Positions 1,268 through 42,251 of a stretch of DNA of 42,500 nucleotides are shown here, piece after piece; within the stretch, counting starts at the first letter, position 1, and the number at the start of each line of letters is the position of its first letter. The notes under the pieces were generated by a model. It ran no database searches. It was given only the letters and a program-made list of their open reading frames with translations, and was not told the origin of the DNA. The translations under genes and the position numbers were made by a program. This DNA comes from Chromatiales bacterium (GTDB lineage: Bacteria > Pseudomonadota > Gammaproteobacteria > CAMYNG01): contig JALTLF010000188.1 in the NCBI GenBank assembly GCA_027005735.1, forward strand, positions 1-42,500. Direction: 5' to 3'.

Positions 1268-1316
1268 GCCCCCGTCGGGCACGTACACCAGCCGTGTCAG
1301 GACAGCAGTCAGGGAA

Positions 1317-1925
1317 TCAGGCACCGGCGGTATCCTGGTGGTGGCGCTGGGCCTGCAGGCGTTGCAACCTGCGGCGTTGCAGGATGTTGACACCCACCAG
1401 GACAAGGGTGATGACGATCACCGCCGCGCCAATGGGTCCCACCGGCAGCGGCTTGCCGATGGTGATGGGGAAGTCGATGACATAGGGCTCGCCGTCGGAT
1501 TCGAACTCGGCACTGATGATATAGTCCCCTTCCTTGCTGAAGACGAAGCCCTGGCGGTAGATGCCATCGTCGATCTCCTGCACGCCGAGCACCTCCGGCT
1601 TACCGTCACTTAACCAGCCATCGTCACGCACCTTGAAGGTCACCTTGCCGACAAAGGGCGTACCGTCCTCGATGCGGCTGGCATAGAGATTCACGCGGCC
1701 GGGCTTGTTGGGCTCCGGGAAGGCGGGGAAGGCCATGAAGTTGACGAAGTACTTTCCGATCTGTGTTTCGATCTGCATTGCCGGTGGTGTGTTGGAGTCG
1801 TCACCGAGACTGTAGGAAGGGCGTCCGAGTACGTGGTGGGCCCATACGCTGACGGGCAACAGGGAGAAAAGAAAAACCATCAGCCACAAGGGACGTAACG
1901 CTCTGTTTCGCATCATCATCGTCAT
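1317..1925 (-). CDS. Exported, C-terminally anchored small periplasmic protein (FixH/YtkA-like, tentative)
   Basis: The track lists a 294-residue ORF, but the sensible start is the in-frame ATG giving MTMMMRNRALRPLWLM, about 202 residues, because a clean signal peptide follows with likely cleavage after VWA. The mature protein begins HHVLGRPSYSLG, carries a beta-rich region of about 120 residues, and ends with one transmembrane helix (GPIGAAVIVITLVLVG) and a basic tail. A periplasmic Ig-like domain plus a membrane anchor next to a CcoG/NosR-like ferredoxin gene recalls FixH/YtkA-type accessory proteins, but I do not recognise the family with certainty. The two leading His residues could bind a metal; this is speculation. 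It lies between a NapG-like and a NosR-like gene in one operon. The ATG cluster makes the exact start uncertain by a few codons. Confidence 0.72.
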   Translation of the reverse strand: MTMMMRNRALRPLWLMVFLFSLLPVSVWAHHVLGRPSYSLGDDSNTPPAMQIETQIGKYFVNFMAFPAFPEPNKPGRVNLYASRIEDGTPFVGKVTFKVRDDGWLSDGKPEVLGVQEIDDGIYRQGFVFSKEGDYIISAEFESDGEPYVIDFPITIGKPLPVGPIGAAVIVITLVLVGVNILQRRRLQRLQAQRHHQDTAGA

Positions 1926-1971
1926 GTCAAAGGCGTAGTATATGAGTGATCCAGAATGGCCTGTCATTACC

Positions 1972-2607
1972 TCAGCGCAGCTCGATTTTACGCCGCACGC
2001 CGATGCCGTGGTGGGCCACCGTGCCCTGGCTGCGATCGACGATACGGATCGGCAGGCTGGGTTCGGGACAGACCTCGACACACAGGCCACAACCCACGCA
2101 GCCCTTCTGCACCACCGGCCGGTAGAAGTTGCCGAACTCGAAGTCGATGGCCGAGGAACCCAGGGGACAGATCCCCACGCAAGCACCGCACACACCGGCA
2201 TCCACCCACGGATAACAGGCGACCCGATCGATCTGCGCCGTCCCCATATCCACCTCGCGGATGGGTGTCTCGGTCAGGGCCTCCGTGGGGCAGACCTCCA
2301 TGCACAGGCCGCACAGGATACAGGCCCGGTCTTCCGGGTTGATGTAGGGCGTGTTGACGCCGCCGGCGCCATCGTTGCGATGAAATTTCACCGCCTTCAC
2401 GGGACAGATCTCGCCGCACAGGCCACAGCCGATGCACGCCCCCCGGAAGGCGTCGGGATCCGGCAGGGAGCCGGGCAGGGGCACGCGGCGATGGGGATCC
2501 GCCTTTACCTCCGGCGCCAGCAGGCGCGCCAGTCCGAAGGGCAGCGCGGAGAAACCCGCCACGCCGGCAAAGAAGGCCAGCTTCTGCATGAAGGTGCGCC
2601 GTTTCAT
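1972..2607 (-). CDS. NapG-like periplasmic ferredoxin, four 4Fe-4S clusters
   Basis: 211 residues. The N-terminus MKRRTFMQKLAFFAG is Tat-like. Four cysteine clusters follow: CIGCGLCGEICP, CILCGLCMEVCP, a third in VCGACVGICP with an earlier Cys, and CVGCGLCVEVCP. This is the MauM/NapG family layout. NapG works with NapH to take electrons from menaquinol or ubiquinol and deliver them to periplasmic redox partners. The ATG overlaps the stop of the upstream napH-like gene by 4 nt, so translation is probably coupled. It is the second NapG-like protein in the operon; the other is encoded on the far side of the NapH-like gene. The physiological acceptor here is unknown. Confidence 0.85.
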   Translation of the reverse strand: MKRRTFMQKLAFFAGVAGFSALPFGLARLLAPEVKADPHRRVPLPGSLPDPDAFRGACIGCGLCGEICPVKAVKFHRNDGAGGVNTPYINPEDRACILCGLCMEVCPTEALTETPIREVDMGTAQIDRVACYPWVDAGVCGACVGICPLGSSAIDFEFGNFYRPVVQKGCVGCGLCVEVCPEPSLPIRIVDRSQGTVAHHGIGVRRKIELR

Positions 2608-39696: not shown

Positions 39697-40020
39697 GGCC
39701 GGAGCACTTTTTGGCCGGCAAAACTGGCAAAAATATTAGAATAAGCTAATATTTGGGCGCCCCCGGCCGCTAATGGGGGACCTTGAAAGTGCCTGTTTTT
39801 AACCACATTTTGGTCATGGGGATACCGCCGGGCAGGCCGGCGGCGGAAGTACAGGGTGTGTCACCACAGCATGTCACCGACCCGGCAGGCGCGGCGCGAG
39901 CGCGGATGGCCAATGGCCAAAAAGGCCGTTTTGGTATAGAATTCCGAGGTTTTACGCGTCCATTTTTTACCATTTTTCACGGTCTTACGAACTGACGAGA
40001 TATTTTCATTGAGCAAATTC
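39697..40020. other. Intergenic region between dnaG and rpoD
   Basis: 324 nt without a gene. It contains a perfect 9-bp inverted repeat at 39731-39754 (annotated separately) and several short GGCC-type repeats (TGGCCAATGGCCA). A TATAGAAT sequence at 39935-39942 could be a -10 for a separate rpoD promoter but lacks a good -35. The short ORFs on both strands here have no support. Confidence 0.55.
39731..39754. promoter_or_regulatory. AT-rich inverted repeat upstream of rpoD
   Basis: AAATATTAG, spacer AATAAG, CTAATATTT: a perfect 9-bp inverted repeat, 35 nt after the dnaG stop and about 270 nt before rpoD, unusually AT-rich for this region. It may be an operator or an RNA hairpin; no T-run follows. 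Confidence 0.4.
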
Positions 40021-41835
<1,815 letters not shown>

Positions 41836-41916: not shown

Positions 41917-42251
41917 GGGCCTGTAGCTCAGTTGGTTAGAGCAGGGGACTCATCAAAATGGTGCGTTCATGTCGAAAGACATGAAATGAACGGGATGAAT
42001 TCAGGGAACCCGTAGCAACCCGGTTGGTTGCCGGCAACCCTGAGCCAAGCCGAAGGTACACCTTCGGAAGGTGCAGAGACTACCTGGGGACTGGTTATCT
42101 TACCGAGTGTCCTTAATGACAGGCTAGAGCGTCCCGCACCCAAGTAAGCCTGTTCGCATGCTTACGGGTGATGAGATAGTCCGCTCCTGATGGAAACATC
42201 GGGAATCAGTGAATCCCTTGGTCCCAGGTTCGAGTCCTGGCGGGCCCACCA
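41917..42251 (+). tRNA. ileX-like: tRNA-Ile(CAU) gene interrupted by a group I intron
   Basis: Exons are 41917-41953 and 42212-42251. Joined they give a 77-nt cloverleaf. The acceptor is GGGCCTG/CGGGCCC (one T-G pair), the D arm GCTC/GAGC, the anticodon stem GGGGA/TCCCT with loop CTCATAA, and the T arm CCAGG TTCGAGT CCTGG, with encoded CCA. The anticodon is CAT. The AATxxCTTGGTC segment after it matches tRNA-Ile2 (ileX) rather than elongator or initiator tRNA-Met, so the C34 is expected to be changed to lysidine by TilS. The gene can only work after intron removal. It lies just downstream of rpoD. Confidence 0.85.
41954..42211 (+). ncRNA. Group I self-splicing intron in the tRNA anticodon loop
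   Basis: 258 nt inserted directly after the anticodon CAT. The 5' exon ends in U and the intron ends in G, as group I splicing needs. GTG at 41961-41963 can pair with exon CAU (P1). CATGTC-GAAA-GACATG is P2 with a GNRA loop. P7 is GACTA (42078-42082) with TAGTC (42177-42181). GATG-GAAA-CATC near the end is P9. The core GAGCCAAGCC...AGGTGCAGAGACTA closely resembles the Azoarcus tRNA-Ile(CAU) intron, as I remember that sequence (subgroup IC3). No ORF is inside, so it has no homing endonuclease of its own. Confidence 0.85.

Follow-up and report, generated by a model that had tools for sequence, protein, structure and literature searches.

Organization of the split tRNA gene

The window, by which we mean the whole stretch of 42,500 nucleotides analyzed here, comes from an uncultured gammaproteobacterium and carries on its forward strand a tRNA-Ile(CAU) gene that is interrupted by a group I intron (positions 41917-42251). 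Its upstream neighbour, on the same strand, is rpoD, which codes for the primary sigma factor (40009-41835) and was recognized by its Pfam sigma-70 domains. The 5ʹ exon of the tRNA gene (41917-41953), GGGCCTGTAGCTCAGTTGGTTAGAGCAGGGGACTCAT, ends in the anticodon C34-A35-U36; it is followed by an insert of 258 bases (41954-42211), located between the tRNA positions 36 and 37, and then by the 3ʹ exon (42212-42251), AATCCCTTGGTCCCAGGTTCGAGTCCTGGCGGGCCCACCA, in which the CCA is included. In the unspliced window no tRNA was found by ARAGORN run without introns. When the exons were joined, the same program returned a full cloverleaf of 77 nt with the anticodon CAU and an encoded CCA. The splice choice made by ARAGORN itself, Gln(CTG), was rejected, because it violates the U/G rule of group I splice sites. 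A scan for promoters and terminators returned none.

The spliced tRNA was 84.4% identical to a tRNA annotated as tRNA-Ile in E. coli and 75% identical to the elongator Met tRNA of its own genome; for the sequences that we take to be those of E. coli ileX and metT, the values were 83% and 74%, respectively. The spliced cloverleaf was nearer to Ile2 than to Met tRNAs. In a search of the whole draft genome (241 contigs, 98.7% complete) for an intact second tRNA-Ile(CAU), which the sequence-only reading had named as a finding that would count against a spliced copy here, none was found; the next-best matches were an elongator Met tRNA and tRNAs with other anticodons, and the weaker matches that were read belonged to tRNAs for Met, Arg, His, Lys, Leu, Asn, Val, Gly, Cys and Asp. 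Since the genome is a draft, a second copy could sit in a gap. The genome also encodes TilS (TIGR02432, 163.9 bits), and we infer that the product of the gene is tRNA-Ile2, in which C34 would be converted to lysidine by this enzyme. Given the presence of TilS and the similarity of the tRNA, the split tRNA-Ile(CAU) probably decodes AUA.

Structure and covariation of the intron

The intron was recognized by the covariance model RF00028 with a score of 73.1 bits (E 8.1e-17; gathering score 50), in a match that covered the full model and the positions 1-253. Its folding z-score was -4.84, none of 200 shuffled sequences folded as well, and the minimum-energy fold contained P2, P3, P4, P5, P6, P8 and P9 together with a P7.1 stem. 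For the analysis of covariation, 28 related introns were aligned and scored with a hand-drawn structure, which included the P3/P7 pseudoknot. Across these homologues 97.2% of the cells were paired, and double-sided changes were observed in 38 of 67 pairs, in comparison to 20.3 ± 2.1 pairs in shuffled alignments (0 of 500 as high) and 12-16 pairs in slid controls. The model score, the fold and the covariation together exclude chance as the source of the intron.

The intron is preceded by U and its final base is G. The internal guide sequence GUG (41961-41963) forms P1 with the anticodon CAU, with a U.G pair at the splice site; this pair was present in 28 of 28 sequences, and its two neighbouring pairs changed together. 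P2 (41966-41985) is a hairpin with a GAAA loop and with double-sided change in all eight of its pairs, and the 5ʹ strand of P3 (41991-41997, partner 42130-42136) was 100% paired, three of the pairs having changed on both sides. The P4-P5 domain (42002-42042), P6-P6a (42044-42072), P8 (42137-42170) and P9 (42186-42203), the last one also a hairpin with a GAAA loop, were all recovered as helices of the covariation alignment, and so was the P7.1/P7.1a extension, CCUG...CAGG (42083-42123). The 5ʹ strand of P7, GACUA (42078-42082, partner 42177-42181), which belongs to the guanosine site, has a pairing that is invariant in the 28 introns and thus uninformative for covariation. P10 is not obviously conserved. 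No homing endonuclease was found in the intron, in which the longest stop-free stretch amounts to 64 aa; the members of the family that were measured are 206-348 nt long. Most of what had been read from the sequence alone was therefore borne out, i.e. the coordinates and the identity of the host gene, the complete tRNA obtained upon joining of the exons, and a group I insert of 258 nt directly after the anticodon, with U at the 5ʹ site, a terminal G, P1, P2, P7 and P9.

Guide triplet and retargeting to other tRNAs

Introns of the same type were found in tRNA-Ile, tRNA-Thr and tRNA-Lys, in all cases at 36/37, and the guide triplet tracked the anticodon (CAU with GUG in Ile, UGU with GCA in Thr, CUU with GAG in Lys). 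Such a compensatory change between exon and intron means that the lineage has been retargeted, moving between tRNAs through a rewritten guide, and the covariation of anticodon and guide is a natural record of target changes by group I introns. Four Ile(CAU) homologues (L121, L193, L219 and L220) did not have the expected GUG in the first intron bases (GGGG or other was found there); they may be degenerate or mis-trimmed, or may form a different P1.

We also noticed that the 3ʹ end of the intron reads GUG (42209-42211 in the window) in 138 of 141 Ile introns and CUG in those of Thr and Lys. In the precursor, pairing of the GUG end with the anticodon CAU could lengthen the anticodon stem; for this pairing, the Thr and Lys introns do not covary cleanly.

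Relation to the Azoarcus and tRNA-Leu(UAA) introns

The sequence-only reading had likened the intron to that of tRNA-Ile(CAU) in Azoarcus. The likeness extends to the host tRNA and to the guide logic, in which GUG is used with CAU; it does not extend to the lineage. The window intron has an insert of 45 nt with P7.1/P7.1a, located between the P7 5ʹ strand and the P3 3ʹ strand. Inserts of this kind (34-98 nt) were present in 32 of 32 window-type rows of our tree and in 0 of 15 rows of the Leu/Azoarcus type, the Azoarcus intron being represented by a sequence that we take to be its own. In the tree of the core, from which the P7.1 insert had been removed, the two types were separated by a branch with 100/99 support (with the same sequence for Azoarcus), so the phylogeny with Azoarcus and other tRNA introns, proposed earlier as a check, placed the window's type apart. 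The Leu(UAA) introns in this tree comprised gammaproteobacterial members and one viral-contig member only, and inside the window's type the placement was poorly resolved. An Azoarcus-like query of 194 nt matched introns of the Leu/Ser/Thr type and not those of the window's type; no stretch of the query sequence was located in the literature searched. The window intron groups with phage introns and bears the P7.1 stem, which makes it phage-type, or IA-like.

It could be argued that the intron belongs to the IC3 lineage of bacterial tRNA introns known from Azoarcus and cyanobacteria, and was either retained in tRNA-Ile(CAU) or reached it by spreading: the host tRNA and the guide logic are the same as in Azoarcus, and the P3-P7 motifs are common in their general form. 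However, the distribution of the P7.1 insert, the split of the tree even without this insert and the result of the query, all obtained with the presumed Azoarcus sequence, speak against this kinship, which we rejected as improbable. The window intron thus appears to be a lineage apart from the Azoarcus (IC3) one.

At two other loci (L055 and L078), tRNA-Ile(CAU)-like genes contained an intron of the Leu/Azoarcus type at 33/34 instead of 36/37, apparently a second invasion of tRNA-Ile(CAU).

Distribution among Gammaproteobacteria

In a sample of 369 gammaproteobacterial genomes, drawn evenly, a match to RF00028 was present in 55. The Ile(CAU) intron at 36/37, called from the flanking exons, was found in 23 of the 369 genomes, and the same type of intron in Thr(UGU) in four and in Lys(CUU) in one; the remaining matches were in Leu(UAA), Arg(CCU) and at further sites. 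When 84,980 species genomes were scanned with a pattern, at least 119 stretches with the Ile(CAU) intron were recovered. Among the matches listed, nearly all came from uncultured Gammaproteobacteria, mostly directly 3ʹ of rpoD, and the taxa included Woeseiaceae, the K189A clade, Granulosicoccaceae, Acidiferrobacterales, Ectothiorhodospiraceae and Pseudomonadales. These counts contradict the initial impression that such introns are rare in gammaproteobacteria, and in our judgement the intron is not a rarity. On the other hand, a blastn search with the consensus intron in another draw of 379 genomes of the phylum recovered only the genome it came from, which indicates that the intron is patchy and that its frequency depends strongly on sampling.

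Of 141 intron loci, among which some places are represented more than once, 108 had rpoD on the same strand, upstream of the intron. A genome of the same family had an intronless tRNA near rpoD, 99% identical to the spliced product. The similarity of the introns was weakly correlated with that of RpoD (rho 0.32, permutation p 0.001), thus the inheritance of the intron is neither purely vertical nor freely mobile. Plasmids gave matches to the 5ʹ exon only.

In several genomes with the split tRNA, the 3ʹ half of this tRNA was also present at another locus (L188 with L139, L124 with L195, L151 with L024, and L201), together with between 4 and about 110 nt from the 3ʹ end of the intron. These copies resemble footprints of attachment sites, such as would be left by islands that had integrated at the split tRNA. 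What seemed to be a second copy of the intron with an insert in one genome (G006, L049/L151) was actually a truncated 3ʹ copy. The genome from which the window was taken has in addition two group I introns in a 23S rRNA gene (G000:C174, L084, ~1313-2495, minus strand). By motif, read by hand, they are located after U1917 and U1931 (E. coli numbering), with 14 nt of exon between them, and the second one contains a LAGLIDADG ORF of 191 aa (L004:1440-2015).

Introns in gammaproteobacterial tRNA-Arg and tRNA-Leu were already known from Beggiatoa and Thiomargarita (PMC4853749), and the group I introns of tRNA genes that are tabulated in a work from 2014 are confined to cyanobacteria, alphaproteobacteria and betaproteobacteria (PMC4033280). 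Our literature search, of incomplete coverage, returned no report of gammaproteobacterial tRNA-Ile(CAU) introns or of tRNA introns in phages. Standard tRNA finders miss the split gene, and such genomes would consequently seem to have no tRNA-Ile2; in public phage records, the split tRNA is hidden in the same way.

Proposed splicing of the tRNA

The insertion could also be dead or unspliced, the gene being a pseudogene and another tRNA serving AUA. The draft state of the genome leaves some room for this, and rpoD has no ATA codon, so the demand for AUA decoding may be low. However, both the exons and the core of the ribozyme are intact and have been conserved, with compensatory changes, across many families, no further Ile(CAU) was found in the genome, and TilS has been retained, which makes this explanation very unlikely. 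The probability of a protein-spliced intron of the archaeal/eukaryotic type is negligible: its location in the anticodon loop would fit, but the site is 36/37 instead of the canonical 37/38, the 258 nt comprise a full group I core, and we know of no bacterial tRNA-splicing endonuclease of this kind.

The tRNA-Ile2 gene is very probably split by a self-splicing intron, which belongs to a P7.1-type lineage of many Gammaproteobacteria and some phages that has been retargeted to Thr and Lys. In the mechanism we propose, the split gene would be transcribed together with the group I ribozyme located between positions 36 and 37, and the guide GUG would pair with the anticodon CAU to form P1 with its U.G wobble. 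The first attack, after U36, would then be made by a guanosine bound in P7, and the second, after the terminal G, by the 5ʹ exon released in this way; the anticodon loop would thereby be joined and the intron set free. Judging from the sequence, the tRNA-Ile(CAU) intron is likely to be spliced in this way in vivo.

Phage homologues and possible transfer

The intron matched phages in a blastn search. In the Klebsiella jumbo phage Muenster (MT708547.1) the match fell within a tRNA cluster, in a gap without annotation; this gap contains a split tRNA-Ile(CAU) (L278:1428-1738) with a 5ʹ exon at 1428-1467, an intron of 231 nt at 1468-1698 (RF00028, 104.1 bits) and a 3ʹ exon from 1699. Seven phage records have at least 80% of this stretch in common, and the matching jumbo phages of Klebsiella and E. 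coli are Muenster, KP13-7, RCIP0023, phiKp_21, TH47, Turkey5 and OU509535; in those of these records that carry annotation, the split tRNA-Ile(CAU) is not marked. A broad pattern scan of viral sequences yielded mostly intronless tRNAs, and a narrower pattern gave four IMG/VR contigs (L353, L400, L401 and L403) in which tRNA-Ile(CAU) has an intron at the position known from the window. On some of these contigs phage-type genes were present near the intron.

In the tree, the phage rows neither formed one clade nor were rejected as one (p-AU 0.32), which would fit transfer in either direction. The sequence comparisons suggest that the intron has moved between phages and bacteria. As a tentative extension, which we would put at slightly less probable than its opposite, the P7.1 lineage may circulate between phages and rpoD-linked tRNA-Ile(CAU) genes and be repeatedly retargeted (Thr UGU, Lys CUU), with the split-tRNA phages as the vehicle. 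According to a review from 2014, every phage intron known at that time interrupted a protein-coding gene, although tRNA genes are numerous in phages (PMC3984707). The tRNA-Ile(CAU) introns of the jumbo phages are counter-examples to this picture, and split tRNA genes of phages present a possible route for the spread of tRNA introns.

One more viral contig (L300, IMGVR_UViG_3300018050_001983) had, just downstream of 4824, an apparent tRNA-Leu(UAA) with an intron of the Leu/Azoarcus type, adjoining an intronless tRNA-Ile(CAU).

Comparison with known introns

The intron of Azoarcus BH72 (IC3) resides in the same host tRNA as that of the window, and the anticodon CAU is likewise targeted by GUG; unlike the window intron, the sequence that we take to be that of the Azoarcus intron groups with introns of the tRNA-Leu(UAA) type. 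We take its insertion site to be directly after CAU of tRNA-Ile, and it is presumably about 50 nt shorter than the window intron and devoid of the P7.1 extension. For the Azoarcus tRNA-Ile intron, CAU has been given as the in vivo triplet, and an RNA with the guide GUG was among those tested (PMC6274277). The group I introns of tRNA-Ile2 in Acidovorax and Burkholderia, known to us from description, interrupt the same tRNA and, like the window's gene, are missed by standard tRNA finders; tRNAscan-SE 2.0, in the description of which they are mentioned, was not designed for detecting them (PMC8450103). The tRNA-Leu(UAA) introns of cyanobacteria and Gammaproteobacteria are also group I introns in the anticodon loop of a bacterial tRNA, but they are inserted at 34/35, do not have P7.1 and fall on the other side of the tree, whereas the window intron is at 36/37 and has P7.1.

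The introns of the jumbo phages share with the window intron the host tRNA-Ile(CAU), the site CAU|A, the guide GUG and the P7.1 stem, and differ from it in being phage-borne, 231 nt long, richer in A+T and without the GUG 3ʹ end. The terminase intron of Vibrio phage 11895-B1 has the P7.1 motif CCUG...UUAAUAACAGG and the core as in the window intron, but its host is a protein gene. The dsrA intron of Thiomargarita, known to us by description and called IA2 (PMC4853749), is a literature parallel for a phage-type intron in a gammaproteobacterium, in this case also within a protein gene.
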